Notes under the pieces: model-generated
Told to the model about the DNA's origin: nothing
Databases searched by the model: none
Seen by the model: the letters and a program-made list of their open reading frames with translations, nothing else
Shown here: positions 1 to 20,309 of the stretch, in pieces
Numbering within the stretch: the first letter of the stretch is position 1
How the letters are laid out: each line of letters begins with the position of its first letter
Source: a virus
Virus record (IMG/VR): IMGVR_UViG_3300028392_000305
Span: 1 to 22,868 of that record
DNA length: 22,868 nucleotides
Reading direction: 5' to 3' (one strand)
Translations under genes and position numbers: made by a program

Positions 1-324
1 ATTGGCCAATTCTGCAATTATGTCAGTGCCAGTTGCAACCAAAAAGTCTGGTGTAAAATCTCTATATAGTGCATTACATCCATAACTTTGTAATTTATCC
101 ACAGCCAACACACCGCCTTGATGTCTAGCAATATGTGTCAAATCAAATCCCACACGACTTTCGCCGTTACCAATGGCAATAGCCTGTCCAGTGGTGTGAG
201 TATTGGTGATTTGATTTTGAACAGCTTCTGTTTCAGGCATCCATTGGTTATTTTCCAGCGTTAAGCTGGTCACAATTGACTCTCCCGAGTAAGAACTTCT
301 ATATATCTGTCTTAGTTTTTGCAT
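1..324 (-). CDS. Hypothetical protein, possible Rossmann-like fold (5' part only, runs off left edge)
   Basis: The first 108 codons are present and the reading frame is still open at base 1, so the C-terminus lies outside the window. The ATG at 324-322 overlaps the TAA stop of the 671-aa gene by one base (TAATG). A Shine-Dalgarno-like GGGAG sits about 7 bases upstream, which suggests translational coupling. Visible landmarks are IYRSSYSGES near residue 7, AIGNGESR near residue 48 and YGCNALYRDFTPDFLVATG near residue 80. The GNGxSR loop after a hydrophobic strand resembles nucleotide-binding loops of Rossmann-like proteins such as the MptE/DUF115-like group. I recall similar open reading frames in marine T4-like phages, where they have no assigned function. 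A role in modifying the neighbouring fibres is only a guess. An exact late-promoter octamer lies 44 bases upstream, inside the end of the previous gene. Confidence 0.75.
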   Translation of the reverse strand, partial: MQKLRQIYRSSYSGESIVTSLTLENNQWMPETEAVQNQITNTHTTGQAIAIGNGESRVGFDLTHIARHQGGVLAVDKLQSYGCNALYRDFTPDFLVATGTDIIAELAN

Positions 325-2339
325 TAGAATCTCCCGACAACAATTTCTATTGTGTCTATGCTATTAGTATTTATAGATTCCAACGCTTTACCCAGTACAC
401 ATCCTGGTTTAAATTGACTGTTATCTATTGCTTGGGCCACCCCTGGCACTGTACTTGTAACCAATACTGTGCCTTTATTTACTGGCCCCAACACACGACA
501 GGGCAACCGTCCAGTTAGTCCAAGAGCAACCACATTAGTTCCACTTAGTCCACCATTCATCAAGTGGGCTGGGTCTGTAGAAACAACCCCCGCTGCTCTT
601 TCATCGTGGTCAGTTGTTGTGGTAGTTACTTCGTACTCGCCGCCAAATACCAGCACAGTTCCGGGCTCGTATTGTGCGTCTGCTTGATAGTTTTCTGCCA
701 AGTCAGCATATTTGGCCTGTGTTGATACCCCATAAAAGGTGCCCCACCAGCTGGTTGTTGTTCCGAGATTTTGTGATACGTTGGCAGTTGGCACTACCCA
801 ACCTGATGTGAACACGTTACCACTAATACCTGCACCTCCAACTACCACCAACGCACCTGTTGTGGCACTGGTACTTGCTGTGCCTGATGCAGCAACTACG
901 TTACCACTGGCGATTAATGTACTGCTTGTGGTTGCTGTACTAAACGTACCAACACCATTGAAACTGGTTGCCGTTAACGCACCTGTACTGGGATTATGTG
1001 TTAGCGTACTGGCTGTAAATCCTGCACCATTGCCTGTTGTTTTATCAAGCATTTGTGGGTAAAATGTGGCATTAGTTGTAGTGGCTGTAAAACTATCATA
1101 CAAACTAACGTTGGCTGTTGTGACTGTACCGTTGACGTTTGATCCTGCTAACGCTGTCAAGTAAGTACCGGTACCCACAACGTTGGCACCAATGTTACCT
1201 ATAGTACCAGCATTGACTGTTGCTACAGTGGTTTGTCCTGTGATGTTAAACGCACCAGTTACTGTGAGTGGATTAGTCCCTGAACGACCAATATAGTTAG
1301 TGGCATTACTGCTACCAAATACCAGATACCCTTGTGTGCCATCTTGTTGTCCCATTAAACGTGTAGTGTTGGCTACGTTAATGTCTCCAATCCATACATC
1401 GTCGCCAACTGCAAAGTTTGTTCCATTTCCATTGTTGGTGGCGTAAACTTGTCCACACCACACATTACCTGCGACGCCAATTCCACCCCCAACTACCAAT
1501 GCACCTGTAGTTGTACTTGTACTAGTTGTAGTAGTACTGATAGCCACGTTGCCAGTGCCAGAAGCATAGACAAAGTTTGCAGCTCCTGCAAACGCTCCTG
1601 CATTGTTGTATTGTATTTGTGTTGTACTTCCTCCCGGCGTACCACCACCGCCGCCGCCACTACTGTATGATGAACCGTTTGCCCAGAATACACCGTTTGT
1701 AGTAACTACGTTAGCACCTGTTACCTTACCGAGTATTGTTAAATCGCCGGCATCACTTAAAGTAAACAGATTGCTAGTATAAGCACTATTGATAATCTCA
1801 ATGCCACCGGTACTATTTAAACGGAAGGTCTTGTTAGGATTGGTGCCGCCACCTTGATTAGTAACTAATAAAAAATCGTGATAGCCGGCGCCGCCTTTGG
1901 TAGAAGTACCAGTTACTTGTATTGCCTGTACTGCTGTATTGTTTGTTACTACAAGTGGGCCAGCAACGTTAGCCCAACTAGTTAATGTTAGTGTTGACCC
2001 AGTGTGTGCGGCCCCGGTATTACCAATTGTGGCTGCACTAACAGTTGTGGCAAATAGTGTTCCATTGACTATATGGCTACCGGATGTAATGTTTGCATAA
2101 CTGGTAACTGCAACGTTGGTGTCTGTAATACCAGTGTTACTGGTAAATGCTGTGACAAAAGTATTGCCAGATTCGTTCCAATACAAGGCCACATTACTGA
2201 CTAGGCCATTGGCACGATTCAATAAAAAACCAATATCTACGTTGGCCGAACTATACCCAGCATGTAATACCGTAAGAGGATCGCTGATTCTAGATGTGCC
2301 GGTTGTTATTTGTGCTAATGAGGGTCTAGTTAATGCCAT
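324..2339 (-). CDS. Fibre-like virion protein with C-terminal KYADLAENYQAD domain (671 aa)
   Basis: This is a probable tail fibre or appendage protein rich in Gly, Asn, Thr, Ser and Ala. Residues 27-75 hold a module (DIGFLLNR ... LYWNESG) shared with the 190-aa and 1329-aa proteins. Residues 226-240 are a Gly-rich linker followed by a GGSTTQIQYNNAGAF motif. Residues 268-293 and 484-510 are two copies of the STSTTTGALVV-GG-GISGN module. Residues 371-510 closely match two separate parts of the 1329-aa protein. Residues 515-671 form a C-terminal domain with KYADLAENYQAD, PAHLMNGGL and a final IEIVVGR. That domain is shared with the 362-aa protein and resembles intramolecular-chaperone or Peptidase_G2-like fibre ends. 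Translation starts at ATG 2339, after a weak ribosome site. The stop overlaps the next ATG. Its role in host attachment is inferred from module content, not from a recognised receptor-binding domain. Confidence 0.8.
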   Translation of the reverse strand: MALTRPSLAQITTGTSRISDPLTVLHAGYSSANVDIGFLLNRANGLVSNVALYWNESGNTFVTAFTSNTGITDTNVAVTSYANITSGSHIVNGTLFATTVSAATIGNTGAAHTGSTLTLTSWANVAGPLVVTNNTAVQAIQVTGTSTKGGAGYHDFLLVTNQGGGTNPNKTFRLNSTGGIEIINSAYTSNLFTLSDAGDLTILGKVTGANVVTTNGVFWANGSSYSSGGGGGGTPGGSTTQIQYNNAGAFAGAANFVYASGTGNVAISTTTTSTSTTTGALVVGGGIGVAGNVWCGQVYATNNGNGTNFAVGDDVWIGDINVANTTRLMGQQDGTQGYLVFGSSNATNYIGRSGTNPLTVTGAFNITGQTTVATVNAGTIGNIGANVVGTGTYLTALAGSNVNGTVTTANVSLYDSFTATTTNATFYPQMLDKTTGNGAGFTASTLTHNPSTGALTATSFNGVGTFSTATTSSTLIASGNVVAASGTASTSATTGALVVVGGAGISGNVFTSGWVVPTANVSQNLGTTTSWWGTFYGVSTQAKYADLAENYQADAQYEPGTVLVFGGEYEVTTTTTDHDERAAGVVSTDPAHLMNGGLSGTNVVALGLTGRLPCRVLGPVNKGTVLVTSTVPGVAQAIDNSQFKPGCVLGKALESINTNSIDTIEIVVGRF
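368..375 (-). promoter_or_regulatory. T4-type late promoter, exact TATAAATA
   Basis: The minus strand reads TATAAATA, the octamer recognised by the gp55/gp33 late transcription machinery of T4-like phages. It lies inside the last codons of the 671-aa gene, 43 bases before the ATG at 324. That spacing suits a separate late transcript for the left-edge gene. Lying in coding sequence, it could be coincidental, but the match is exact and well placed. Confidence 0.55.
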
Positions 2340-2359
2340 TTACAAATCCGTTGTTAGAG

Positions 2360-2367
2360 TATTTAGC
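2360..2367 (-). promoter_or_regulatory. Probable late promoter variant GCTAAATA
   Basis: The minus strand reads GCTAAATA (6 of 8 to TATAAATA). It lies just past the U-tract of the terminator at 2375-2395 and 20 bases before the ATG of the 671-aa gene. The identical octamer occurs in the same arrangement before the 190-aa gene. Placement supports it more than the match does. Confidence 0.4.
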
Positions 2368-2395
2368 AAAAATAAAAGGGCCAAATTGGCCCTTT
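2368..2395 (-). terminator. Rho-independent terminator after the 362-aa gene
   Basis: On the minus strand a 9-bp stem (AAAGGGCCA with TGGCCCTTT, 2387-2395 and 2375-2383) closes a short loop and is followed by TTTTATTTTTG-like sequence ending at 2368. It lies 20 bases past the stop of the 362-aa gene. It should end the transcript from that gene. Confidence 0.85.
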
Positions 2396-2414
2396 ATCGA
2401 GTAAGACAATAAGT

Positions 2415-3503
2415 CTATTGTCGACCTATGACCACTTCAATAACGCCTTTGGCACCCGAAAAGTCAGCCAACGCTTTACCAATTACCTGTCCCACTTGTG
2501 CATTGTTATTTGTTTTCGCATAGCCAAAGCCTGCACTGACCATGATGTCACCTTTGGCAACTGGACCAATCACGTTACAAGGAACACGCCCTTGCAGTGC
2601 CAATGGAATAACATTAGTGCCTTGTAGTCCACCATTCATCAAGTGAGCTGGATTTGTGGATACTACGCCGGCAACACGTTTTGTGTCCGGAGTTGCCAAT
2701 GTTACTTCATGTGTGCCACCAAATTCCACAACTTGTCCTGCTTGATATGCAGCGTCTGCTTGATAGTTCTCTGCCAAGTCAGCGTACTTGGCTTGTGTCG
2801 CAACACCAAAGAATGTATTGAACCAGTGTGTACTATCACCCAAGTTACTGCTTACATTACCAGTAGGTAGTATACTAGCCGCAATATAGACGTTACCAGT
2901 TACTCCAAATGTACCGTTTTGTTGTGTACCAGTTGAGCTAATGGCCATAACGTTGGCACTGCTAATACCAACTGTTGCAATACCACCCGAACTACCAATG
3001 GTTACGTTACTTGTACCATTACTGATACTGCTGGCACTCAGTGTTACCCACTGGAGTCCAGTACCAGTTGTACTCAAGAATTGTCCACTTGTGCCCGGAC
3101 TACCAGACAACAAGATATTAGCACCCAATGACAAGTTACCACTGATACCAGTGCCGCCAACAACCACCAATGCACCTGTTGTGGTGCTTGTGCTGGTTGT
3201 GCCACTTGCAGCCACAATGTTGCCTGAGCTGATGTGTACACCACCGTTGTATATTGCACCACTGACACCAACACCACCGGTTACAACAAATGTACCAGTT
3301 GTAGTGCTATTACTTGCTACATTTGCATTGGCTGTTACTAAGCCATAAACCGCTTCAGTACCAGTAACAATTTCATTAATGAAGGTTGTTGTTGTACCTG
3401 TTGTGGTAATATTACCTGTTGTTGAGATGCTACCTGTGGCCGCATCAATTGTCATTGGTCCAATTGTTAGACCATTTTGTACTACGAAATTTCCATTTGC
3501 CAT
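2415..3503 (-). CDS. Fibre-like virion protein with C-terminal KYADLAENYQAD domain (362 aa)
   Basis: This is a short fibre-type protein related to the 671-aa gene product. The N-terminal 60 residues (MANGNFVVQNGLTIG...) are Gly/Thr-rich, with alternating short strands. Residues 65-85 and 102-124 are two STTTGxxVV-GG-G module copies. Residues 134-155 contain GTSGQFLSTTGTGLQWV, a motif common in phage fibre sequences. Residues 210-362 form a C-terminal domain that matches the end of the 671-aa protein: QAKYADLAENYQADA is identical, as is PAHLMNGGL, and both end in an I-E-[IV]-V-[VI]-G-R strand. The ATG is preceded by GGGGAAAATAAA, a fair ribosome site. It could be a shorter alternative fibre tip or a gene-duplication partner of the 671-aa protein. 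No receptor-binding fold is recognised. Confidence 0.8.
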   Translation of the reverse strand: MANGNFVVQNGLTIGPMTIDAATGSISTTGNITTTGTTTTFINEIVTGTEAVYGLVTANANVASNSTTTGTFVVTGGVGVSGAIYNGGVHISSGNIVAASGTTSTSTTTGALVVVGGTGISGNLSLGANILLSGSPGTSGQFLSTTGTGLQWVTLSASSISNGTSNVTIGSSGGIATVGISSANVMAISSTGTQQNGTFGVTGNVYIAASILPTGNVSSNLGDSTHWFNTFFGVATQAKYADLAENYQADAAYQAGQVVEFGGTHEVTLATPDTKRVAGVVSTNPAHLMNGGLQGTNVIPLALQGRVPCNVIGPVAKGDIMVSAGFGYAKTNNNAQVGQVIGKALADFSGAKGVIEVVIGRQ

Positions 3504-3544
3504 TTTATTTTCCCCGGTTCCATATTCCCCGATAAGGTTTGTAA

Positions 3545-3571
3545 GTTAAGGGCAGCCTATCTGCCCTTAAC
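3545..3571 (-). terminator. Perfect 11-bp hairpin after the 1329-aa gene; weak terminator or processing site
   Basis: The sequence GTTAAGGGCAG at 3545-3555 pairs perfectly with CTGCCCTTAAC at 3561-3571 across a 5-base loop. It sits 8 bases past the stop codon of the 1329-aa gene. Unlike the other terminators here, no U-run follows on the minus strand (the next bases are TTACAAACC). It may be a weak terminator, an mRNA 3'-end stabiliser or an RNase site. No promoter is obvious before the 362-aa gene, so read-through is likely. Confidence 0.5.
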
Positions 3572-3579
3572 TGTCGCTA

Positions 3580-6500
3580 TTAGATTACCAAATAATCTTT
3601 CTTAATTCTCACTATGTTGGTTGCATTGGTTGCAATAAACTGTAGTAATGAGTTGCTGCCACTTTGTGTAGCTGACAATACACCCAAGTTACCGTTGGTC
3701 TGTATCGTACCATATGTGGTCACTGTGGCGGTTGTACCATTGCTGATCAACAACGCTTCCATGACTTGGTAGTTGGTACCATTGGTGACCTGTACAATGT
3801 ACTTGGCACTGCGGTATGTGCTGGTTGACATGGTGTCCACTGTGGTTGCTGTGTTTGCACTTGCAACTGTCACGTTGCCAACTGCATTGACTTCTGCACC
3901 TGATGTGTCCCAATATGTTGTATTGTTTGCAGAACCTGTTCCAGTTGTCACATAAGCACCGTTGTTGTCTGCATAGAATCCCATGTAACCGTTGGTACCA
4001 GATATGGCCGTAATTGTTGATGTTGTTGTCAATCTTCTTACATCAATCACGTCACCACTTGCAGGAGCTTCAGTGAATGTTAGTGTGGTTCCAGAACAAC
4101 TGTATGCTGTTGTTGGAATCTGCACAATACCGTTAATGCTGACAATAGCACCATTGGTGGTTGATGAAGCAGCCATTGTGAATGCTGTTGTGCTTCCATC
4201 GCCGTTGAACGAGTCTGTGGCTATAACAGTAAATTGTGTTGACAATGACTGCCAGCTTGATCCGTTATACACTTCCATCGCTGTTGATGTTGTGTTGAAA
4301 CGCAACATACCAGTGGTATCAGTTCCGCCTGTGCTGCTTGGACGTTGTGCTGTTGTACCTGATGGTATCATCATACTGTCTGTGCTGTTGATCTGTAGTT
4401 TTGCACCACGTACCAATGTGGACGCTGTGGCACTGTTACCAATCAGCACCTGATCGTATGTGGTGCTTGAACGTGCCCATATCAATGATGTAGTATTCTT
4501 ACCAAGTACATACAAGTCTGCACCGTTACCAGTGTTCTGCCCAACGTTGATGTTTGCACCCCAAGTCGTCACTAGGTTGGCGGTTGTCAAGTTACCTGTA
4601 CTTGGAGTATATTTTAGTATACCGTTACCATCTACATATTCGTTCTGTGCACCACCAGCAACACTGTCAGTGAGTACTGGATAGTATGCAGTTGAACTGG
4701 TTGATGTGTTTATGTTGACACTGCTTGCCTGTGTTGCATAGGTTGCACTGTTGACTGAACCCGAACTTGTTTGATATCCGGATGGGTTGGTATTGTTGTA
4801 TGGTGTAAAGCCCAGTGCTGTTGTTACCATTGAACTGCTGATAGCACCCGAGAATGTGGTTGCACTCAGTGTACCAGTCGACGGATTAACGTTGACCGTA
4901 GTCACTGCACCAGTCACACTATTTCCACTCACCACATTGGCAAATTCTAAGTAATAGGTTTGATTATTGGTCAAGTTGGTGACTTGATCGTATATGGCCA
5001 CGTTGGCAGTTGGATATGTACCACTCAACGCACCAATACTGATGTTGGTCAAGTAAGCACCTGATCCAACAAACGCTGTGGCACTCACGTTACCAGTTGA
5101 CGGATTAACGTTGATGTTTGTGGTTGCACCTGTTGAAGTATTGCCGTTTGTCACGTTGGCAAACTGCAAGTAGAACGTTTGGTTAGTTGTATATGGTGTA
5201 ATGTTATCATACAAGCTGACGTTGGCTGTGGCCACTGTACCATTGACGTTTGATCCAGTTAAACTTGTCAAGTAAGTGCCAGTACCAACTAAGTTGGCAC
5301 CAATGTTACCAATTGTACCTGCGTTAACTGTGGTTGCAATAGCAGTACCTGTTAGCGTAGAACTTGCACCGCTAAACGCTGCTCCTGCGTTACCGATTGT
5401 ACCTGCATTCAATGTTGCTGTTATCAATGATGTTGTTGCATTCACTGTGGCTGTAGTGGTTGTAGCACCAATATACAAGTTTCCTGATATGCTACCATCA
5501 CCATATACCTGGAACGTTCCTGTGTTGGCTGTTAGGCCACCGCCCACTGTCTTGGCATTGGCAATAATTGCTGCACCAGACTTGGTTGTGCCCAATACTG
5601 TGCCAGCAAACACGTTGGCTGTGTCTGTACCACGTGAGTACCAGGTCAAGAATCCATCTGCTGTGGTACGTCCCAAGAATGCTGCTGAATCAACAGTGTC
5701 ATAGTAGTGGAATTTTAAACCAATATCAGCTGTAGTCGGTGTAGTTAGTGGTGTTAGGTCGCTAGGTGTGTTCAAGTTAATGATCGGGTCATTGATACTC
5801 AATGTACTAGCACCAATGGTTACACTTTGACCAGTAACTGTCAAGTTGCCACCAATGCTTACGTTTCCGTTTAGTACACTGATACCGCCCACATACAAGT
5901 TACCACCAACACCAACACCGCCTGTGACCACCACAGCACCAGTTGTTGTGCTTGTGCTTGTACCTGTGCCAAGGAACGTACCAGTTGTGCCGTACGCATT
6001 GCCTAATAGGTATGGAGCTCCGATATTTCCTGTTGTTACTATAACATTGGCTGTACTGGCGATTGTCAATCGATTTCCAGTGGCAGTGGTAAGAGTCAAA
6101 TTACCATCAGTGCCTTCACCAATCACAGAGCCACCTATGTATTGTGTTTGTCCGCTCAAATATAGATCTTTAAATCTTAATCCCGAGGTACCCAAGCTAT
6201 AAGTTACGTTGGCACTTGGTACTATGTTACCAGTTATGGCAATATTACCGCCAACTGTCAAGTTGCCTGAGGTACTTGCTGTAGTAAATGCACCCGAACC
6301 AGGTGTTACATTACCAATTGCTTGTGCTTGTAGTCCACCTGCTGTGGCAGTTGAAAGAGTAGTTGCACCAGTAACACCCAGTGTTGAACTAAATGTACCT
6401 GTAGTAAATGCACCCGAACCAGGTGTTACATTACCAATTGCTTGTGCTTGTAGTCCACCTGCTGTGGCAGTTGAAAGAGTAGTTGCACCAGTAACACCCA

Positions 6501-7569
6501 ACGTTGAACTAAATGTACCTGTAGTAAATGCACCAGTACTTGCTGTTGTTGATCCAATTGGAGTATTCTGTATACTACCTGCATAAATTGCACCACTGAT
6601 ACCTGCCCCACCCACTACCACCACAGCACCTGTTGTTGTGTTTGTACTTGCTGTACCACTTGCAGCCACAATGTTGCCAGACGCAATTAACGTGCCACTG
6701 GTAGTTGCTGTACTAAATGTACCAATACCGTTGAAGCTGGTTGCTGATAATGCACCAGTTGAAGGATTGTGTGTTAGCGTACTGGCTGTGAATCCTGCTC
6801 CGTTACCAGTAGTTTTATCAACTATCTGAGGATAGAATGTGGCATTAGTCGTAGAAGCTGTAAAACTATCATACAAACTAACGTTGGCAGTAGGTACAGT
6901 ACCGTTCAAACTACCTTGTGTAAAGTTACCTGTGATGTTGCCTGAAAAGAAGTTGGTTACTGTGGCCTGTGTGGCTGTTACGTTGGCTAGTCCGTTGACA
7001 TATCCACCTGTGATTACAGCGTTGGCTGTTGAGAAATTTGTTGCTTGAGCTGTGGTAAAATAACCAGTACTGCCGCTGATTGGAGTACCTGTGATACCGT
7101 TTGAAGCTGTGATTGAACCTGTGGTTATGGTCAAGCTGTTGGCTGTCACGTTACCAACTTTCAAGTTGGCAAAGCCCGAATTGTTAATGGCACCAGCAGT
7201 GGTACCAGTTTCTGTGGTCATTACACCCACAAATGCTGTGTCTGCTTCTTTCCACACAAACGCAGCATTAACAGCACCGTAAGGAGCCAACGAGTTCAAA
7301 TTGCGGTTGATCAACATACCAATATCGTATGTTGGAGATCCTGTATAGTTGTTGTTGAACACAACAACGGGGTCATTAATGTATGTGTTTATTGAATTTA
7401 ACTGTGCAAAACTGTTGGCAACAGTCAAATTACCCAGGATTGTAACGTTACTGTTCAGGGTCAAATTGGTTGCAAACAAGCCCCCGGTAAGTGTGTTTGT
7501 TGCAATCTTGGCAGCTGTAATGGTGCTGTCTGTGATCTGATTATTTTTAATTCTGGTAATATTTGCCAC
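3580..7569 (-). CDS. Giant modular tail-fibre-like structural protein (1329 aa, GTG start)
   Basis: I place the start at GTG 7569-7567, giving MANITRIKNNQITD. It has AAGGA seven bases upstream, and this N-terminus fits related phage proteins better than the TTG at 7584. Residues 43-125 and 575-655 hold the 'ND-P-I-LN ... G' module shared with the 190-aa and 671-aa proteins. Residues 346-425 are two perfect 40-residue repeats (GAFTTGTFSSTLGVTG...). Residues 307-329 and 536-560 are STTTGAVVV-GG modules. Four copies of a TANVSLYD ... NPSTGxLSAT unit lie near residues 226-282, 779-834, 851-906 and 942-998. The C-terminal 250 residues carry an 'RFNT..EVYNGSSW' segment, a 'GDGSTT...VSINGIVQ' domain and a final sandwich-like domain (STYRSAKYIVQV). 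It is probably a long fibre or baseplate-linked appendage. It is flanked upstream by two late promoters and downstream by a hairpin. Confidence 0.85.
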   Translation of the reverse strand: MANITRIKNNQITDSTITAAKIATNTLTGGLFATNLTLNSNVTILGNLTVANSFAQLNSINTYINDPVVVFNNNYTGSPTYDIGMLINRNLNSLAPYGAVNAAFVWKEADTAFVGVMTTETGTTAGAINNSGFANLKVGNVTANSLTITTGSITASNGITGTPISGSTGYFTTAQATNFSTANAVITGGYVNGLANVTATQATVTNFFSGNITGNFTQGSLNGTVPTANVSLYDSFTASTTNATFYPQIVDKTTGNGAGFTASTLTHNPSTGALSATSFNGIGTFSTATTSGTLIASGNIVAASGTASTNTTTGAVVVVGGAGISGAIYAGSIQNTPIGSTTASTGAFTTGTFSSTLGVTGATTLSTATAGGLQAQAIGNVTPGSGAFTTGTFSSTLGVTGATTLSTATAGGLQAQAIGNVTPGSGAFTTASTSGNLTVGGNIAITGNIVPSANVTYSLGTSGLRFKDLYLSGQTQYIGGSVIGEGTDGNLTLTTATGNRLTIASTANVIVTTGNIGAPYLLGNAYGTTGTFLGTGTSTSTTTGAVVVTGGVGVGGNLYVGGISVLNGNVSIGGNLTVTGQSVTIGASTLSINDPIINLNTPSDLTPLTTPTTADIGLKFHYYDTVDSAAFLGRTTADGFLTWYSRGTDTANVFAGTVLGTTKSGAAIIANAKTVGGGLTANTGTFQVYGDGSISGNLYIGATTTTATVNATTSLITATLNAGTIGNAGAAFSGASSTLTGTAIATTVNAGTIGNIGANLVGTGTYLTSLTGSNVNGTVATANVSLYDNITPYTTNQTFYLQFANVTNGNTSTGATTNINVNPSTGNVSATAFVGSGAYLTNISIGALSGTYPTANVAIYDQVTNLTNNQTYYLEFANVVSGNSVTGAVTTVNVNPSTGTLSATTFSGAISSSMVTTALGFTPYNNTNPSGYQTSSGSVNSATYATQASSVNINTSTSSTAYYPVLTDSVAGGAQNEYVDGNGILKYTPSTGNLTTANLVTTWGANINVGQNTGNGADLYVLGKNTTSLIWARSSTTYDQVLIGNSATASTLVRGAKLQINSTDSMMIPSGTTAQRPSSTGGTDTTGMLRFNTTSTAMEVYNGSSWQSLSTQFTVIATDSFNGDGSTTAFTMAASSTTNGAIVSINGIVQIPTTAYSCSGTTLTFTEAPASGDVIDVRRLTTTSTITAISGTNGYMGFYADNNGAYVTTGTGSANNTTYWDTSGAEVNAVGNVTVASANTATTVDTMSTSTYRSAKYIVQVTNGTNYQVMEALLISNGTTATVTTYGTIQTNGNLGVLSATQSGSNSLLQFIATNATNIVRIKKDYLVI
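6281..6534 (-). repeat. 120-bp tandem direct repeat inside the 1329-aa gene
   Basis: Bases 6281-6400 and 6401-6520 are copies differing only at two adjacent positions (6381-6382 versus 6501-6502). A further 14 bases of a third copy continue to 6534. Both differences are silent (Thr ACA/ACG, Leu CTG/TTG), so the encoded 40-residue units are identical. The length is a multiple of three, and the frame is kept. This points to a recent duplication by slippage or unequal recombination. Confidence 0.95.
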
Positions 7570-7764: not shown

Positions 7765-10700
7765 TTAGCCAAGCGTGACATAGCCCCAGTAGACCGTTTG
7801 ACTAGACCCGCTGGTGTTGTTGATACCAAAGTCAAATCTATTGGTGGTTGCACTGGGGGAGGTACTGCTACGAACTATGGTGTTTGCAGTGCCGGTAAAC
7901 TGATTGGGTATGCTGGTAAAGTCAATGGGTGTGCCGCCGCCGTTGTAGACCCAAGCATACTGAGCACCCACCACAGGCACATTGGTATTGGTAACTACCA
8001 CAGTAGCAAGGTATACTAGAATACCGTTGGGAATATTGCCTCGGACCCAAATTTGATATGTGCCACTGGCAGGAACTGTGATGCTGTAGGTATTTGTACC
8101 AGTGGTCACTGTCCATGAACCTGTGGTCTTACTGGTTAGGTTAGTGCCAGTGATGTTGCCAGTAGCAGTGACATCTCCTGATACCGTTACAGCCCGTGTG
8201 ACTGTCAAGTTGCCACCTACTGTGACATTGCCAGTTGTGGTCATTGTGTCTAGCGTGTTGAGGGCAAAGGCTTGATTAATCTGTGTGATTTTAGCGTATG
8301 TGCCTTGGCCTGCCACAATGGTGCCACTACCTAGTCCGGCAGTAATTCTTACTTTTACCGTTTGATTAGTGCTTGGTGTGTAAACTAGTTTAGATAAAGT
8401 TCCATATGCGGCGTTCGACGCCCAAGTAGCTGGTACTACAGTACCTGTGCTAATGCCAGTCGTATCTAGTAGTGCATTTGTTGTGGCATCGACCCAATTG
8501 AACAAGATATAATCACCGGTACTATTCATACCAATATAAGTCAACTGCGATTCTAATTCATAAGTCTTGCCAGCAGTTAATGTAAACACACCAGTTGATG
8601 TATTGTGTGCTATACCAGAATTAGTAGCAATAGAGGTGTTGAATATTACATCCTGTGGTGTAGCCGCATTAGATACAGTTTGACCACTAGTTATTCTACC
8701 TGCTTGTATATAATCGTTGTTGACTGTGCCAGTGGCAGTGGCTTGAACTGCTATGGATAAATTAAGCGGTCGAACAATGGCCTGTGTTCCAATAGCACCG
8801 CGTAGGGTTGCGGTGCCGCTTGCTGAAGTAACACGCAGTTTAACTGTCTGGTTAGTGCTTGGTGTGTATATGACTCTGGCGGTGGGATTATCAATTTGTC
8901 CACCACTTTCAGTGGTTGGTATTGAAGTTCCTGTACCAATGCCAGTTGTATCTAGTAGTGCATTTGAAGTGGAATCTACCCAATCGTAACACAAGTATCC
9001 GCCTGTGGTATTACTAAATGAGATAAAACTTGGTGTAAAACTCATGTCATAAGTTACACCAGCAGTAAGAGTGAACACACCAGTTGATGTGTTGTAACTT
9101 GTTTGACTGTTGACATTTCCTACCACAGTGTCAAGTACGAAGGTGCTACTATTTCCAAAACTGGTTACACTACTTGTTAGTCCAACAACTATGAAAGCAG
9201 GATTCACTACACCATAACTTGTTAAGGCACCGTTTATTAACACATTGCCGGCTGATACGTTGCCAGTGGTTGTGACATTGGTTGAGATACCTGCGGCCAA
9301 GTATGCGGCTGTATTGGTGTTGGCGTTAGTGGCCAGGCTGGTAATAGATGTTTGTTGTGTTGCGGCATTGGCATTGGCCCAAGTATAGTAACTGCCTAGG
9401 TTGGCGTTGATGCTGGCTATGTTGGCGTTGGCCCATATTTGTGTCACACCCAAGTTGGCTTGTAATACTGATACCGTTGTGTTGGCATAAGTTTGGAACG
9501 CACCCAAGTTGGCATTGGTGCTTACATTTCCATTATACAAAGTACCAATATTGGCATTGGCATAAATTTCATAGGCACCCACATTGGCATTTAGTGTTTG
9601 TATAGTGGTATTGGCCCCAGTAATGCTGTTATACAACCCACTTACGTTGGCATTGGCCCATGTCTGATAACTGCCAATATTGGCACTGGTAATATTTTGG
9701 CTGGTTAGGTATGCACTTACATTGGTGTTACTATATGTGCTACTTGCGGCCACAGTGGACAAGATGTTCACACCGTTGGCAAACAAGTAGTTTGGAGCAA
9801 TAATATTGGCCGTGGTTGTAATATTGGCTGTTGTACTGATGCTTGTTACGTAATTCTGCAAGTTAGCAACAACATTGGCATTACTATAAGTTGTGCCACC
9901 AGTTACCGGCGTGTTGTTTATCAATAGTGTACCATTGCTAACTGATATTGGAGTATTGCCGACGTAGATGGTATTGTTACTGACCCATAAGTCTCGCCAT
10001 TGATTTGTGCTGGTACCTAGACTGTAAGTTACATTGGCACTTGGTATTAGGTTGCCATCAAATTGAGTCAAGTAAGATTTAACATTGGCGTTACTATAAG
10101 TTGTGCCGCCTGATGTAATTCCAGTTAGAATACTTACACCATTGGCATAGTTGATCATACCGCCACTTGGCAATGTAACATTACCATTTGTATCTAATGC
10201 AAATGTCTTGACTCCGCTCACCAACACATCCGATGTAGTACCAGCAGGACCTGCTGTCAAGTACCCAACTCGTGTAGCAGATCCCAGTGCCAATCTCTCA
10301 AATGTTACTGTAACGTTGGCACTGTCGCCAGTGGCCCATAAATTAATATTTCCTGAACTAATGTTACTGGTAAAAGTTGCAACATTGGCCTGTGTATTAC
10401 TTTGAAGTACTCCATACCCTGTATAATATACTTGGCTGCCGGTATTGATTGAACTGATGGTCAGTGCTGTGTAGTTTGTGTTTACATTATCAACGGCAGT
10501 GACAATCCATTGTAGTGCAGTGTTGCCTGTAATAGGAATACTATCTATTAGTGTTGGCGATCTGGTTGCCGTTACTCTGTTTAAATATGTTCCTGGATTG
10601 ATATTATCAAATTCATGTACGACTGATGTCGCCAAAAACCTAACATCAATTAAATCTGTTACTTCAGGTACTTGTGAAAAAGTAATAGTGGTACCCGATA

Positions 10701-11808
10701 CTGTGTAGGCCACTGTGGGTTTTTGTACAACACCGTTGATACTGACCAATACTCCAATATCTGTCGAAGACTGACTTAATGCATAAGATGCACTAGCACC
10801 ATCAGGATCAATTTGTTGGTCTGTTATACCATTAACAATACTGATCCAGGCGGTGCCATCAAAATATTCAAATGTTGCACTATCTGTATTATATCTGATA
10901 TATCCAATTTGACCAACAGGACGATTTGCAGTTGATCCCACTGGTAATTTTAAAGATCCAGTTCCTGTTACTGTAACCACATTGCTTGTAGTTCCAGTAA
11001 TGTAATCTGTTATAATATTACCAGTAATGTTACCAGTTGTAGTAATACTATTACTACCAAAACTTGATAAGAATGTCGACACATTGGAATTACCAAATGT
11101 ACTACCAAATACATAGGCAGCACCGTTGGGGTAAAACAATCCGCTAGTCAATACATTGGCTGTTGTGGTAATATTTCCACCGAAACTTATATTATTATTA
11201 CCAGTAATGGTATTACCATTAATTGTAATATTACCAATTGTCAGTCCATTAGTAAAACTGGTTGCTCCAGTTGGGCCTATGTATCTTGCCCCACTAATAA
11301 AAACACTTTTACCAGTAACACCCGTTGCAATGGATGTAGGCAAGTTAGTACCAATAAAGTTTAATATACCTGATTGATAATCAAAATACCATTGATCGTC
11401 GTTTAGACCGGCTGCCTGTAATGCGGTGCCTGTTGTTTGTGCTGTTGTGCTTCCTGTAGAATCAACATAAACTTTAACAAAATATGTGGATCCAAATTGT
11501 GGATCAATCCAGTTTGTTAATCCCGTTGACCATGTACGATTATCTGTAACAGCCAATTCTGTACATTCAACTGTAGGTGACCAAGATCCCGAACCATCTT
11601 TATAAACTTGCACAACACTACTCGTTGTCGATGGTATGCTTTCCGGAATCGATCCGGACAATTGCCATAAGGTGTCTCCACGAATTAGCAATGGGCTTGG
11701 GTTAGCTTCGTTGTAAGCTTCTTTAGGAGGATTGGTGTCTGTTTTGGTCGCGGCCCAGGCAATCTTCTTATATAAGAGGTCAACTTTTTGACTGTCTGAA
11801 ATAGCCAT
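7765..11808 (-). CDS. Giant virion structural protein with tandem C1q-like domains and conserved tip (1347 aa)
   Basis: Residues 1-177 form a conserved N-terminal domain (SDSQKVDLLYKKI, SPLLIRGDTLW, FDYQSGILNFIGTNLP, ISGARYIG) that I recognise from structural proteins of cyanophage- and pelagiphage-type T4-like phages. It probably anchors the protein to the virion. Residues 288-507 are the RYNT/EYFDG segment, a 'VSINGVVQKP' domain and a sandwich-like domain, also found in the 1329-aa protein. Residues 705-835 contain repeats of the form ANxGxxxxxANAN, probably a trimeric stalk. Residues 868-1012 and 1022-1172 are two homologous domains (FTLTAG-TY, WVD-T-NALLDTTGI, YTPSTNQTVK) resembling C1q-like jelly rolls. 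Residues 1228-1347 form a C-terminal domain (IPNGI, NVPVVGAQYAW, WGYVTL) common at fibre ends in marine phages. The ATG overlaps the stop of the 1219-aa gene by one base. It is a likely receptor-binding fibre. Confidence 0.85.
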   Translation of the reverse strand: MAISDSQKVDLLYKKIAWAATKTDTNPPKEAYNEANPSPLLIRGDTLWQLSGSIPESIPSTTSSVVQVYKDGSGSWSPTVECTELAVTDNRTWSTGLTNWIDPQFGSTYFVKVYVDSTGSTTAQTTGTALQAAGLNDDQWYFDYQSGILNFIGTNLPTSIATGVTGKSVFISGARYIGPTGATSFTNGLTIGNITINGNTITGNNNISFGGNITTTANVLTSGLFYPNGAAYVFGSTFGNSNVSTFLSSFGSNSITTTGNITGNIITDYITGTTSNVVTVTGTGSLKLPVGSTANRPVGQIGYIRYNTDSATFEYFDGTAWISIVNGITDQQIDPDGASASYALSQSSTDIGVLVSINGVVQKPTVAYTVSGTTITFSQVPEVTDLIDVRFLATSVVHEFDNINPGTYLNRVTATRSPTLIDSIPITGNTALQWIVTAVDNVNTNYTALTISSINTGSQVYYTGYGVLQSNTQANVATFTSNISSGNINLWATGDSANVTVTFERLALGSATRVGYLTAGPAGTTSDVLVSGVKTFALDTNGNVTLPSGGMINYANGVSILTGITSGGTTYSNANVKSYLTQFDGNLIPSANVTYSLGTSTNQWRDLWVSNNTIYVGNTPISVSNGTLLINNTPVTGGTTYSNANVVANLQNYVTSISTTANITTTANIIAPNYLFANGVNILSTVAASSTYSNTNVSAYLTSQNITSANIGSYQTWANANVSGLYNSITGANTTIQTLNANVGAYEIYANANIGTLYNGNVSTNANLGAFQTYANTTVSVLQANLGVTQIWANANIASINANLGSYYTWANANAATQQTSITSLATNANTNTAAYLAAGISTNVTTTGNVSAGNVLINGALTSYGVVNPAFIVVGLTSSVTSFGNSSTFVLDTVVGNVNSQTSYNTSTGVFTLTAGVTYDMSFTPSFISFSNTTGGYLCYDWVDSTSNALLDTTGIGTGTSIPTTESGGQIDNPTARVIYTPSTNQTVKLRVTSASGTATLRGAIGTQAIVRPLNLSIAVQATATGTVNNDYIQAGRITSGQTVSNAATPQDVIFNTSIATNSGIAHNTSTGVFTLTAGKTYELESQLTYIGMNSTGDYILFNWVDATTNALLDTTGISTGTVVPATWASNAAYGTLSKLVYTPSTNQTVKVRITAGLGSGTIVAGQGTYAKITQINQAFALNTLDTMTTTGNVTVGGNLTVTRAVTVSGDVTATGNITGTNLTSKTTGSWTVTTGTNTYSITVPASGTYQIWVRGNIPNGILVYLATVVVTNTNVPVVGAQYAWVYNGGGTPIDFTSIPNQFTGTANTIVRSSTSPSATTNRFDFGINNTSGSSQTVYWGYVTLG

Positions 11809-14800
11809 TACGAATAAGATCCTAAATAAATGTTACTTACAAACTGTCCAGGGCCCAACACTATGTTGAACAAACATTGATGTATTGCTGAATTAGATAA
11901 ATCTGCAGATCCCAGTGTTAATATATATCCCACATTGCTCACAAACGTATTTACCGGCACTGTGGTTCCCACTGCACAACCAGTACTACCGTTGCCGCCA
12001 GCACCAGTGTTTGCACCAGGGTATCCTGATCCACCGTAGGCCACATTGGCGTCCATCCAACCATTCAACGTTGAATTGGTATCTGTTAATTTTGTTCCTG
12101 GTGCAGCCACATACATTCCGGCTATGTTGCCAGTGAATATGACCTTCATGTTCTGCATGATGGGTCGTTGGAATGCAAACTTGAAGTTTTGTGTTGTGGT
12201 TCTGTTTCCGCCCACAGATAAATCTGGACCCACAGGCAAATAACCGCTACTGTAGTTTGTTGTGTTGACTTTCAAGTTGCCCCAACGTACAACTGCTTCT
12301 GTTGTTCCTGCCACTGTTGATGTACTAGACCAAGCCGCAGTAGAGTAGTAGTTTGTGCCTGTATTGGCATAAGTTGGTGTAGTCACGTTTGCACTGGACA
12401 ACACAATTCGTTTGGCCACTGTGGTGTTGCCAGCTGCAGCTCCTGCACTACAGGCAATACTGGTTTCATCAAGTCCAGTATAACTGGCACTGTATACATT
12501 CAAATATGTGGGCAATGTCACCACAGAACTTGTACCGTTCACATTGGTCAAACTGACGTTGGCATTGGCCACTGCGGCTGCTGTTCCATCAATGTTCAAA
12601 TATAAATTACCAAATGTGTAACTATTGGAAATAACGTTACCTGTATTGGCCTGTGGTACACCACCAGTCAAGTAATTGGTGCCTCTGTTCAATACATCAT
12701 ATGTTTTGGTTTGGCTAGTGGCAATTGTTCCTGATGTGCCTTCAGCTGGTGTTGTGTTGGCACTGATGGTGAACGGCGATGCACTGCTTGGACCATAGAA
12801 TGTTTGTCCTATCCAGTTGTAGGCTTGTAGACCTTGTACCACAACGTTTCCACCTGCTTGATAATAAGGAACACCCGATACTGTTCTAATTGTGGTTGCT
12901 GACACATTACTCATGGTCACACCCGAAGTAACCAATGTTGGCACTGCGGTCACATTATCCACCACATAAGGAACTACGTTTGTTTTACCTGTAGAGGTAT
13001 GTGATAAGAACGTGTCATTGTAGCCCAAATTAGCAGCTGATAATGACCCACTGATATAAGCATTAAAGACTTTGTAGAAGTAACTTGGATATGTGGCATC
13101 AACCACATGGTAATCTCTGTCTGCAGCAATTACCAAATTGTTATATGTTCCACTGGTGTCTGTTGGTGTACTAAATGCAACTCCGCCCACGTTGGCTCCA
13201 CTTACATAAGCAAGTAAAGTTCCTGCAACAGATGTATTGGCATTTGTTATAGTGTTTGTGACCACTGTGCCAGTTGATGTAGTATAACGTGTTACACTTG
13301 TTCCGGCACTGGCAATGTTACCACTTGTTTTATCCACTGCACCAGCAGACAAATAAGGACTAGTGCCAACCGATGAAGTACTCATTGACAATGTTTTGGT
13401 ACTTAATGCACCCGGTGCAGTTGGTGTAGTCTTAATTGTGACTGTTACTGATTTGGTGTTACTCTGTGAGATAGTAACTGGTGTACCATACGATGTCAAT
13501 GCCACTGTCTTGGCACCAGTTGCTGAATATGTATGTGTTATATTTGCTGAACTTGGGAATCCAGATCCAGACGATACGTTACCACTTGAAGTTGAATCTC
13601 CATAGTTCCAATTTACTATTGTGGCATTTTGTGTGGTATTCGAACTGAAGTTAAACAAGCCCCTATCGTTACCAAGGTAGTCAGTGTAAACATAACCTGA
13701 CAACGCATTGTCACCGGTGGCATTGCTGATTGTGTTTGCTGTCGCTGACAAATTACTACGAACACTTGGTTCAACAATGATCTGTATGTTTGAACTAGTG
13801 AATGGACTTGTGCTATATCCGGTGTATACTTTTAATAGAGTATTATATGTTACTGATGTTCCAGCAATCTGTTGTGCTGATGGCAAGGAATATGTGTGAG
13901 CAATAGTTGTACTGGTATCGCCTGAACTTGCACTACCAATTGATACGTTGCTGTTGGCGGTACCATCACTCCACCAGTATTGATAAACTTGTTGAGCACC
14001 AAACGTTGCGTTACTACCAGGAGTGGGTGTTGTTCCGTTAGTGACGCCAACTGTGCCACCCCCATTGCCTTCCCAGTTAACTGTACGGAAGGTTGTTACA
14101 GCACCGTTGGCTGTGATTGATGGTGTTATTACACTGTATACTTTTGTAGTATACGGAGCACTATTAACACTTACTATGGTTGGCGGTGCGGCGGCCGTAC
14201 TGCTATTACTTTGTAATATGATACTGTAGGCAGTATCTGTGGTGGCGTTGTTGTATGTGTGTTTCTGTGTGCTACCAGGACTTGTGCTGACCGTTGTGTT
14301 GCCATCTCCCCAATATACTGTATATCCAGTTTCATTTGTACTGGTGTCAGTGAATGATATTGTATTGCCAGTATTCAATGACGCTGTGTTAGTGGTAAAT
14401 GATGGTACTGGGTTTGGTGTATATAATGTAATATAGTTGGTGCGAGTAAAATCATCTACGCTACCAATTGCACCCAACGTGGCATTTCCGCCCCATGTGC
14501 CGGAACTGTTTGACGCACGATAGTAAACTGTAAATACTCCGCCACTGGTGTTGGCATAAAGATGTGTCACTGAACTACTACCAGTTGTGGTATTACCATC
14601 TCCGAAATCCCAGTAGTAAGTGTTTGGGTTACCAGATGCTGTTCCTGTAAATCGAATTGCAACTGGACTGGCATTGGATGTTACATTTGCTGTGAATTGT
14701 ACATTGCCAACAAATGTACCTTGTCCAAGATTTAAGGCAACTTGATTTAGATTGTCTATTGCGTCAGTGACTTTTGTTGTACTTGACCAACCATCATATC

Positions 14801-15467
14801 CTGAATTGGCCACAAGGCTACCATCTGTTGGTGTCCCTAATGTAACGTCCATTCCTGTTGTACCAACAGCACCTGCCAATACTGTTAAATTTGCCCAAGA
14901 TGTGTTTCCGCTTCCATCTGTGGTCAATACATAATTTGCAGAACCACCAGTTAGAAATAAATTACCAGTTGTAATTACATTACCACTTTTGTTGGTAATA
15001 TTACCAATAATATTATCAAGAAAATTTATTGCATCAGTAACTGTTATAGTATTAGATAAGGCTGTTGTACCGTATGCATCGCCGGATGTTGCTACAGATC
15101 CTAATACAATGTTATTGCCTGTAAAGTTTTCTAAACCAGACAGTGTACTTAAATTTCCAAAACTTAAATTTCCATTACCATCTGTATATAGAATATAGTT
15201 AGCAGTGCCGCCTGTTATTTGAACGTTAGATACACTACCGAGATTAATTTTACCAGTATTGCTGGTAATGGTGTTGCCTAATATTATAAGATTGGCAAGT
15301 TTGACATTGCCCGAACTATCAAGACTATAAGAAGGACTGGCATTGTTTATACCAACACGACGATTTATTACATCAGCATATATTAAATTACCGTCAATGG
15401 CAATATCAGCACCCTGGCGTTCCAGGTTGCTCTGTAACATCTGCCCTGTTATACGTGCTATTGCCAT
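11808..15467 (-). CDS. Giant virion structural protein with four PKD-like domains (1219 aa)
   Basis: The N-terminus (ARITGQMLQSNLERQGADIAIDG, then LIYADVINRRVGIN-ASPSYSLD) is a conserved start of structural proteins in marine T4-like phages. Residues 80-200 hold two GG-[TS]-ANY-L-TDG-GN repeats. Residues 252-337, 351-433, 436-565 and 567-678 look like four PKD (Ig-like) domains: they contain WDFGDGNT, VYWGDGNTT, YWWSDGT and WNYGDST, each followed by an H-[TL]-Y strand. The remaining part (about 690-1219) is an uncharacterised beta-rich region that includes SGVPYYQAGG and DVLNRGTNYLTGG, with a C-terminal piece (RPIMQNMKVIFTG..., ending IYLGSYS). AAGGG lies upstream of the ATG, and only 8 bases separate it from the 140-aa gene. 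PKD domains often bind carbohydrate or protein surfaces, so a role in host adhesion is plausible but inferred. Confidence 0.85.
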   Translation of the reverse strand: MAIARITGQMLQSNLERQGADIAIDGNLIYADVINRRVGINNASPSYSLDSSGNVKLANLIILGNTITSNTGKINLGSVSNVQITGGTANYILYTDGNGNLSFGNLSTLSGLENFTGNNIVLGSVATSGDAYGTTALSNTITVTDAINFLDNIIGNITNKSGNVITTGNLFLTGGSANYVLTTDGSGNTSWANLTVLAGAVGTTGMDVTLGTPTDGSLVANSGYDGWSSTTKVTDAIDNLNQVALNLGQGTFVGNVQFTANVTSNASPVAIRFTGTASGNPNTYYWDFGDGNTTTGSSSVTHLYANTSGGVFTVYYRASNSSGTWGGNATLGAIGSVDDFTRTNYITLYTPNPVPSFTTNTASLNTGNTISFTDTSTNETGYTVYWGDGNTTVSTSPGSTQKHTYNNATTDTAYSIILQSNSSTAAAPPTIVSVNSAPYTTKVYSVITPSITANGAVTTFRTVNWEGNGGGTVGVTNGTTPTPGSNATFGAQQVYQYWWSDGTANSNVSIGSASSGDTSTTIAHTYSLPSAQQIAGTSVTYNTLLKVYTGYSTSPFTSSNIQIIVEPSVRSNLSATANTISNATGDNALSGYVYTDYLGNDRGLFNFSSNTTQNATIVNWNYGDSTSSGNVSSGSGFPSSANITHTYSATGAKTVALTSYGTPVTISQSNTKSVTVTIKTTPTAPGALSTKTLSMSTSSVGTSPYLSAGAVDKTSGNIASAGTSVTRYTTSTGTVVTNTITNANTSVAGTLLAYVSGANVGGVAFSTPTDTSGTYNNLVIAADRDYHVVDATYPSYFYKVFNAYISGSLSAANLGYNDTFLSHTSTGKTNVVPYVVDNVTAVPTLVTSGVTMSNVSATTIRTVSGVPYYQAGGNVVVQGLQAYNWIGQTFYGPSSASPFTISANTTPAEGTSGTIATSQTKTYDVLNRGTNYLTGGVPQANTGNVISNSYTFGNLYLNIDGTAAAVANANVSLTNVNGTSSVVTLPTYLNVYSASYTGLDETSIACSAGAAAGNTTVAKRIVLSSANVTTPTYANTGTNYYSTAAWSSTSTVAGTTEAVVRWGNLKVNTTNYSSGYLPVGPDLSVGGNRTTTQNFKFAFQRPIMQNMKVIFTGNIAGMYVAAPGTKLTDTNSTLNGWMDANVAYGGSGYPGANTGAGGNGSTGCAVGTTVPVNTFVSNVGYILTLGSADLSNSAIHQCLFNIVLGPGQFVSNIYLGSYS

Positions 15468-18936: not shown

Positions 18937-20052
18937 TTATTTAAGCCCTGCTAAACGCTTCATCTCAAACACATTGTCATAGGACGCTGTAGCTGGAGCT
19001 TCAACGGGAGTTTTAGCAGTTTTATCACCGGTTGCAACTGAACGTGATTCTGTCAATACTTTTGCCTGTAGGGCAGGTGTAGCAACAGAACTGTTGTTTA
19101 GTACAGCTGGTAGATACTTTTCGTATGCACTCTGTAATTTATCAGTTTGCACACTCTCAAGAAGGTCACGCATGATTGCGGACTTTTCTTTGTTCAATGG
19201 TTTCATCAGTTCTGCAAGTTTTTCCTTGCGTTCTGTTGATTCCTTGATGATTCTAATTTCTTTTTCTTTAGTCTCAACTAAAGTTTGCTTGGATTCAATT
19301 ACCTGAACTGCTTCAGATAATTTACCAGTTACTTTGGCTACAGTAGCCTGCAACTGACGAATTTGTTTGTTCTCATTCAAGTGAGTACCTGCAAATTCAC
19401 TAGCAAATGCTTCGAATAGACGACGTCCAAACATGTTCTCACGAGCAATTTGAATGTCTTCTTTTAGTTGAGTCAATTCTGACTCTAACGAACTGGTAAC
19501 GGCCTCTTTAACAGCAGCAGCAGATTGAGCAATGAATTTTGATTGTAGTTCAGCAATTTTTGCTTTACCTTCACGAACCAAGCGAACTTTGGCTTCCACC
19601 ACAGCACGTTTGTCATTTTCAAATTCTTTGATCTCTTCGGCAAGTGCTCTGATTACAAATTTTTCTAGCTTGCCAGCGGCAGCTTCGTAAACTTTGCGAT
19701 CATCACGCAATTCTTTGATTTCTTCGGCCAATTTACTAACCATGAAATCATTGAATTTGCCAGCACTTTCGACCATGTGGTTTTTAAACTTAACACGATC
19801 TTCAGCTAGTTGTTTCTTTTCGTCTGCAAACTCAGATAGTTCAGCAGTGAGAGACTCGGTAACCATTTTGTCTAGAGCTTCAACCATAACTTGTTTGTCA
19901 TGTTGGTAACGTTGTGCGAATTCTTCACGAAGTTCTGCACGAACAGTTTCTTTAGCTTCAGCAATACGGCTTTCCCATGCCTCAGCAATAGCTGTGCGTG
20001 TATCTTCGTTAATAACTCCGTTATCCAATAATGGTCGAATTGCATCTAACAT
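18937..20052 (-). CDS. 22: Prohead scaffold protein, T4 gp22-like (371 aa)
   Basis: This is the internal scaffold on which gp23 assembles, later degraded by gp21. The sequence is almost wholly helical and highly charged. Near-repeats lie at residues 68-107, 108-136 and 137-155, with LAEEIKE in two of them. QLKEDIQIARENMFGRRLFEAFASEF lies at about 195-220, DLLESVQTDKLQSAYEKYLPAVL at 296-318, and the C-terminus is FEMKRLAGLK. The middle block and the MKRLAGL end are hallmarks of gp22 in marine T4-like phages. It is longer than T4 gp22 (269 aa). The ATG overlaps the end of the 87-aa gene by 7 bases and has AAGGAG upstream, a strong site. Several L-x-E and I-x-E sequences are available for gp21 cleavage. 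Confidence 0.95.
   Translation of the reverse strand: MLDAIRPLLDNGVINEDTRTAIAEAWESRIAEAKETVRAELREEFAQRYQHDKQVMVEALDKMVTESLTAELSEFADEKKQLAEDRVKFKNHMVESAGKFNDFMVSKLAEEIKELRDDRKVYEAAAGKLEKFVIRALAEEIKEFENDKRAVVEAKVRLVREGKAKIAELQSKFIAQSAAAVKEAVTSSLESELTQLKEDIQIARENMFGRRLFEAFASEFAGTHLNENKQIRQLQATVAKVTGKLSEAVQVIESKQTLVETKEKEIRIIKESTERKEKLAELMKPLNKEKSAIMRDLLESVQTDKLQSAYEKYLPAVLNNSSVATPALQAKVLTESRSVATGDKTAKTPVEAPATASYDNVFEMKRLAGLK
18938..18945 (-). promoter_or_regulatory. Possible late promoter variant CTTAAATA before gp23
   Basis: The minus strand reads CTTAAATA (6 of 8 to TATAAATA) across the gp22 stop codon, 28 bases before the gp23 ATG. T4 has a late promoter just before gene 23, and the core TAAATA is shared with the other sites here. 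The coding overlap with the Leu-Lys-stop codons makes coincidence possible. Confidence 0.35.
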
Positions 20053-20309
20053 ATGGATTCTCCTTTTGTTGTTTTGATATTATTCAATTTTTTTGATAAT
20101 TTTGTTCTCTTTTCACTAAGAGAAATTTTCTCTTTAGTTTGTACATCCCAAGTTTTCCCTTTTCGTGCCAAACTAATTGCCCTTTTGGATTCTTCACTAT
20201 GTTTAAATCCAGACAATCCTTTATTCCATGCCACACGTCCCTTTTTAGATGCAACATACCACATCATTGATGGTAAATGAGTCCATTTGTACACATAAGC
20301 GATTGTCAT
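20046..20309 (-). pseudogene. Remnant of a NUMOD3 / GIY-YIG-type homing endonuclease (87 aa)
   Basis: The first 22 residues (AYVYKWTHLPSMMWYVASKK) resemble the start of a GIY-YIG nuclease, with AYVY in place of GIY and YVA in place of YIG. The sequence then jumps straight into a NUMOD3-type DNA-binding repeat, GRVAWNKGLSGFKHSEESKR at 24-43 with ISLARKGK after it. A second, weaker repeat follows (TKEKISLSEKRTK, 58-70). The catalytic core, with its Arg and Glu, is missing, so nuclease activity is unlikely. The gene overlaps gp21 by 4 bases (ATGA) and gp22 by 7 bases, so it sits cleanly between two essential genes with an intact frame. It may be a decayed homing gene or a small DNA-binding protein kept for another use. 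Confidence 0.7.

Follow-up and report, generated by a model that had tools for sequence, protein, structure and literature searches.

The 671-aa gene of a 22,868-nt stretch of virus DNA (IMG/VR record IMGVR_UViG_3300028392_000305, positions 1 to 22,868, a metagenome contig; here called the window) is a mosaic. Its left and right sides match two different parts of a nearby gene of 1329 aa (1334 aa in a longer reading; hereafter the larger gene), and they meet within the short coding motif TANVSLYD, which the larger gene carries in two copies, copy A (at aa 232) and copy B (at aa 786 in the 1334-aa reading). It is probable that the 671-aa gene acquired this structure by motif-guided cassette exchange, in which a left piece of the copy-B type was joined between the TAN and V codons to a right piece of the copy-A type.

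The two sides of the 671-aa gene match different parts of the larger gene

Comparison of the two genes by blastn showed two main DNA matches lying on different diagonals. Positions in the 671-aa gene, which is on the minus strand, are given as q (window coordinate = 2340-q). The left match extends over q1120-1268 and corresponds to larger-gene positions 2254-2402 (81.2% over 149 nt), and the right match extends over q1207-1521 and corresponds to larger-gene positions 679-993 (80.3% over 315 nt). The parts of the larger gene matched by the left and right sides are 1.5 kb apart, and the 62-nt overlap of the two matches corresponds to sequence that is itself repeated within the larger gene (75.8%). 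These results bear out the original prediction, made from the sequence of the window, that two segments of the 671-aa protein match separate parts of the 1329-aa protein; no contiguous part of the larger gene in the window matched both segments.

Sites informative about the parental copy were of the B type up to q1224 and of the A type from q1233, placing the switch at window positions 1107-1116, at the TAN and V codons. The switch thus lies within TANVSLYD, as had been predicted, slightly to the left of the proposed interval (about 1115-1140). When the order of the informative sites was permuted, the observed value was reached only 2 times in 200,000. The highest ungapped identity over 120 nt was 104/120, compared with 58-62 in 10 codon shuffles. 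At amino acids unchanged between the copies, four-fold degenerate third bases agreed at 15 of 22 sites on the left and 31 of 54 on the right (expected fraction 0.337; p 0.001 and 0.0003, respectively), indicating common DNA descent beyond what protein constraint would produce.

The two sides were also ranked against 79 other repeat units that begin at this motif. The best match of the left side was copy B of the neighbouring gene (0.822), and the right half of copy B ranked 35; the best match of the right side was copy A (0.829), and the left half of copy A ranked 61. The 291-nt right block found a full-length match only in the larger gene and in L005 (L-numbers denote contigs of related uncultured phages). 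Recombination at a repeated motif that works as a module joint, as originally proposed, is therefore well supported by the position of the breakpoint within the motif, by the best matches to copies B and A among the 79 units, and, as described below, by other joins at this motif in related phages and a minimum of linkage at the same place.

The flanks of the motif vary independently among related phages

TANVSLYD forms the N-terminal edge of a repeat unit of about 58 aa in virion genes of uncultured jumbo T4-like phages. A hidden Markov model of the unit (58 columns) detected 95 domains in 2041 open reading frames (ORFs) from 121 sequences, with many copies within single genes in L090, L094 and L100. 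The unit had no convincing Pfam match, all of its PHROG matches were unannotated, and a literature search by titles and abstract openings found no description of it. The 95 domains were reduced to 81 with full flanks and a score of at least 30, and to 75 by dereplication at 95%; a later set was reduced from 101 to 86 and then to 80.

Among the 75 units (2775 pairs), similarity of the 30 aa to the left of the motif was uncorrelated with similarity of the 37 aa to the right (rho 0.016), a value equalled or exceeded in 164 of 500 Mantel permutations. Halves within one side were correlated (rho 0.152 and 0.208), and no permutation of 500 gave values as high. A scan that left a gap of 8 residues, which was adopted after an ungapped scan of adjacent windows had shown no minimum at the motif, placed the minimum of coupling centred on the motif (rho 0.03 for nucleotides and 0.142 for protein, with protein values of 0.36-0.46 inside the unit). 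For between-gene pairs in the set of 80 units, coupling was 0.128 at the motif and up to 0.393 inside the unit, and in 247 of 300 bootstraps over 31 loci the minimum lay within 4 residues of the motif centre. The motif is thus conserved while its flanks vary independently according to the gapped scan and the rho of 0.016; the ungapped scan did not show this. A position-resolved profile was not used as evidence, since it chose pairs by left and right identity and so partly built in its own step.

Exchange of partners was also seen when the flanks were clustered. One cluster of left cassettes, with 8 units, was joined to 7 right clusters, and more than one partner was found for 5 of the 10 multi-member left clusters and 7 of the 12 multi-member right clusters; the similarity thresholds, 0.72 and 0.76, are arbitrary. 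Among 3160 pairs, 16, 11 and 7 were highly similar on both sides at thresholds of 0.72, 0.75 and 0.78, while 59, 37 and 22 were so on the left and 133, 49 and 23 on the right. Within loci, a search for triplets gave further hybrid units. Its 25 candidates overlap in their units and hence do not count as independent; in several of them, including L090:1110 and L094:382, the switch lies no more than 12 nt from the start of the motif.

Origin of the two pieces and alternative explanations

In the mechanism that we propose, the 671-aa gene and its neighbours would be virion genes strung from short cassettes lying between recurrent coding motifs (NAxTIGN, NGTVxTANVSLYD and TTGALVVxGGxGxxGN). Homeologous recombination or copy-choice between non-allelic copies, either within a genome or between co-infecting phages, would swap the cassettes; because the motifs retain both DNA similarity and reading frame, this could occur without breaking the protein. 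The evidence is compatible with template switching as well as with ordinary homeologous recombination. We infer that the exchange took place by such an enzymatic route between two genes of the same genome, and that the left cassette passed from a 1329-type to a 671-type gene. The left cassette is present in the larger-type genes of five contigs (the window, L044, L030, L125 and L128) and in the 671-type genes of two (the window and L022), a distribution that favours transfer from a 1329-type gene, and such a gene probably was the source of the left piece. The direction is less clear for the right block: the 671-type gene of L048 has a right half of the copy-A type at the orthologous place, with another left half, so the right block could have moved in the opposite direction. 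A hybrid that arose earlier within the lineage of the window may also have been the source. Consequently, the mosaic stands, but the original suggestion that splicing of two distinct parts of the 1329-aa protein gave rise to the 671-aa protein goes beyond the evidence.

Several observations weigh against an exchange at the motif between the two genes of this genome. The second-ranked match of the left side (L030, 0.811) is nearly equal to the first, so that the donor may have been another phage. L044 has the same kind of junction in its 1329-type gene. The event is old, with a divergence of about 20%, and later changes could have blurred it. In a scan of adjacent 15-aa windows the minimum of coupling was not at the motif (rho 0.212 at position 0, with the lowest value, 0.075, at +9); our interpretation is that the ungapped scan misses the minimum because the motif, being conserved, varies together with each of its two sides. 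Furthermore, about half of the 25 triplets switch outside the range from -10 to +24 nt relative to the motif start.

Other joins at the motif, which the original prediction proposed to look for, occur in related phages, as the clusters and triplets above show. A degenerate pattern for the exact junction occurred in two other IMG/VR contigs, L005 and, in the larger gene, L044. The junction in L044 raises the possibility that the unit with a copy-B-type left and a copy-A-type right is ancestral, that it stood whole in a 1329-type gene and was passed intact to the 671-aa gene, and that the 1329-aa gene of the window then lost the left half of copy A, with no splice at all. The fact that the 1329-type gene of L044 holds such a hybrid unit, together with a copy-B-type unit at the orthologous place, lends this explanation some weight and partly bears out the concern that the arrangement of the 671-aa gene might be found in relatives. 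However, the 671-aa gene is much less similar to the L044 hybrid (0.70 on the left, rank 7; 0.685 on the right, rank 15) than to the two parts in the window (0.822 and 0.829), and a codon bootstrap gave 0.0034 and 0 of 10,000 for the two sides. In addition, the left half of the L044 hybrid has its nearest match in copy B of L044 itself (0.78). Together with the lower similarity on both sides, this suggests that L044 contains a parallel join and is not the source. Inheritance of the whole hybrid from an L044-like unit is made unlikely by the ranks and the codon bootstrap, and we hold the ancestral-unit explanation in general to be improbable, though not negligible.

It is considerably less credible that both genes merely hold members of one widespread repeat family, so that the resemblance of each half reflects old shared descent of the units with no specific exchange at the motif. 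Units are indeed frequent in such genes, as the 95 domains show, and unrelated pairs already reach a gapped nucleotide identity of about 0.61-0.64. This explanation is opposed by the sharpness of the parent switch, by a first rank among 79 on each side combined with ranks of 35 and 61 for the mirror halves, and by the extension of the right block into the tail past the unit (291 nt), which is found only in the neighbouring gene and L005. Finally, an assembly or sequencing artefact can practically be dismissed: the window comes from a metagenome assembly, in which repeated sequence is easily misjoined, but the copies are about 20% divergent, their private changes are distributed over the whole length of the two pieces, and the identical junction is present in a second record (L005, a close relative with 97% identity over 274 aa, which has the right block at 100% plus 39 nt to the left of the join, 100% over 330 nt in total), so that an assembly chimera is rejected, provided that L005 derives from other reads.

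Further joints in the 671-aa gene and the locus in relatives

Joints at repeated motifs were not confined to TANVSLYD. In six ORF matches (the larger gene, L030, L046, L007, L077 and L015), the left cassette becomes homologous at one common base, q1120, which coincides with the motif NAGTIGN, present in two copies in the larger gene. On the other side, the right block stops at the repeated motif TTGALVVVGGAGISG, past which lies a YADLAE domain related to the 362-aa gene located between the 671-aa and larger genes; the 362-aa and 671-aa genes match at 71.8% over 209 nt and 77.7% over 94 nt (blastn). At least two further joints were therefore missed by the original prediction, one at the NAxTIGN motif on the left and one at the TTGALVVxGGxGxxGN motif on the right, and with these the 671-aa gene is a chain of at least four pieces.

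The three genes are all on the minus strand, and the order of larger gene, YADLAE gene and 671-type gene (with its MALTRP N-terminus) was also found in L004, L013, L021, L022, L030, L044, L048, L065, L125 and L128, with gene lengths that differ greatly between relatives. The N-terminus of the 671-aa protein was matched by 56 ORFs, 44 of them at an identity of at least 44%; the repeat unit (score above 30) was detected in 5 of these 44 (the window, L013, L048, L022 and L094), and some of the 44 are truncated by contig ends. The block preceding the window's cassette runs into a different sequence (YDNGTRV or the like) in L004, L048, L013 and L077, suggesting that the copy-B-type cassette of the window is a replacement. 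A search of the INPHARED phage collection gave no match to the hybrid region.

In the 671-type gene of L022 (L022:10768-11832), extra sequence separates the N-terminal domain from a NASTIGN motif. This insertion ends at the NASTIGN joint and includes a copy-B-type left cassette with a different right half.

Within the larger gene (1334-aa reading), two head-to-tail copies of 120 nt at 6279-6518 are 98% identical and in frame, a recent duplication and evidence that rearrangement of this gene continues. A similar run of the duplicated segment is present in L044.

Predicted nature of the encoded proteins

The major capsid protein encoded in the window is a Gp23 (PF07068) whose closest relatives are those of the jumbo T4-like phages Vibrio 2.275.O, Sinorhizobium Phosso and PA5oct. 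The C-terminal domain of the 671-aa protein is homologous to gp359 of PA5oct, whose record lists it as virion structural and carries a note of electrospray ionization tandem mass spectrometry (ESI-MS/MS); gp359 adjoins gp358, noted as a T4 gp10-like tail pin. Judged from sequence, the 671-aa gene and its neighbours are likely to encode tail or baseplate appendage proteins. A sequence search of the PDB gave no match for either the 671-aa or the 1329-aa protein, and structure predictions were unusable (mean predicted local distance difference test score, pLDDT, 33.8 for the 671-aa protein and 38.0 for a two-unit segment). Near the C-terminus of the 1329-aa protein (gene 3580-7569), aa 1120-1185 gave a weak match, below the Pfam cutoff, to the T7 tail-fibre N-terminal domain PF03906.

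Comparison with known systems

That phages shuffle parts of their tail genes at conserved motifs is already established, and the 671-aa gene is a new, well-shown case of such shuffling. From the work of Tetart, Desplats and Krisch in 1998, the T-even distal tail-fibre locus is said to recombine between conserved motifs; glycine-rich motifs within gp38, the adhesin, reportedly serve as the joints, and it is the specificity of this adhesin that is swapped. As in that locus, short conserved coding motifs here flank variable segments and act as joints for swapping. Unlike in T-even gp38, the joint here, NGTVxTANVSLYD, is not glycine-rich, and the repeat sits in large virion genes. According to PMC12529663, gp38 has five glycine-rich motifs.

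Smug et al. 2023 (PMC10684548) describe mosaicism at domain and sub-domain scale, with tail fibres and spikes over-represented in a sequence-based measure, and treat the sub-domain scale as an under-explored reservoir of mosaicism. Their mosaic pairs have fragments of at least 50 aa in common, with identity of at least 30%, coverage of at most 50% and a probability of 95%. The present case resembles theirs in that fragments are common to otherwise different phage proteins; the right block has 97 codons, 87 of them identical, and weak similarity elsewhere between both genes may exceed their coverage limit. Whereas their analysis deals with such fragments in representative proteins, the joint here is resolved to a few bases and the pieces lie in genes that are neighbours in a single genome. 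Relaxed homologous recombination by Rad52-like recombinases in temperate E. coli phages is described by De Paepe et al. 2014 (PMC3945230); there, as here, the borders retain short homology after diverged sequences have been exchanged. Letarov and Krisch 2013 (PMC3797505) describe modular swapping in fibritin; this too is modular exchange inside a virion fibre gene of T4-like phages, although fibritin is a different gene and its swaps, reported as ancient and ceased, concern the C-terminal domain.

Tentatively, the three-gene virion locus may be a standing shuffling library, whose motifs would serve as portable in-frame joints and whose cassettes would be in continual movement from one neighbouring gene to another and from phage to phage. 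If so, the length and content of the interior of each protein would turn over while its ends stay fixed. A base-resolved example combined with a quantitative linkage test over many phages points to virion proteins of large phages being rebuilt at the sub-domain level. Since the repeat unit lacks a convincing Pfam match and an annotated PHROG match, it could provide a practical marker for mosaic virion genes of uncultured phages.

Gene layout and other features of the window

The coordinates of the three genes and of their matching parts are given in Table 1.

Table 1. The three virion genes of the window and the segments compared
Feature	Coordinates	Strand	Remarks
671-aa mosaic gene	324..2339	-	ORF; MALTRP N-terminus and YADLAE C-terminal domain; gene order conserved in relatives; C-terminal homologue PA5oct gp359
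Left cassette of 671-aa gene (NAGTIGN...NGTVTTAN), copy-B type	1110..1220	-	82.9% over 111 nt to larger gene
TANVSLYD of 671-aa gene	1095..1118	-	switch between window 1107 and 1116; informative sites, permutation
Right block of 671-aa gene (repeat unit and tail to TTGALVVVGGAGISG), copy-A type	819..1109	-	80.4% over 291 nt to larger gene
362-aa gene	2415..3503	-	YADLAE C-terminal domain and TTGALVVVGGTGISG motif in common with 671-aa gene
1329-aa gene (larger gene)	3580..7569	-	ORF; 1334 aa if started at TTG 7584; three repeat units (unit survey)
Copy A right block, larger gene	6592..6882	-	best match of right side of 671-aa gene, rank 1/79
TANVSLYD, copy A, larger gene	6868..6891	-	
Copy B left cassette, larger gene	5221..5331	-	best match of left side of 671-aa gene, rank 1/79
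TANVSLYD, copy B, larger gene	5206..5229	-	
TANVAIYD, third unit, larger gene	4987..5010	-	

No inverted repeats of at least 30 nt, such as might mark a Gin/Cin-type invertible tail-fibre cassette, were present in the window; shorter crossover sites were not searched for. A further internal duplication was seen in a 1347-aa protein, where two related C-terminal segments (8425-9012) match over 102 nt at 75% with a spacing of 486. A 1219-aa virion-type protein with PKD domains (PF18911) is encoded at 11808-15467, two genes upstream of the repeat gene. At 20046-20309, between the prohead protease gene and the next gene, an 87-aa ORF has a NUMOD3 motif (PF07460, above the cutoff) and is probably the remnant of a homing endonuclease.

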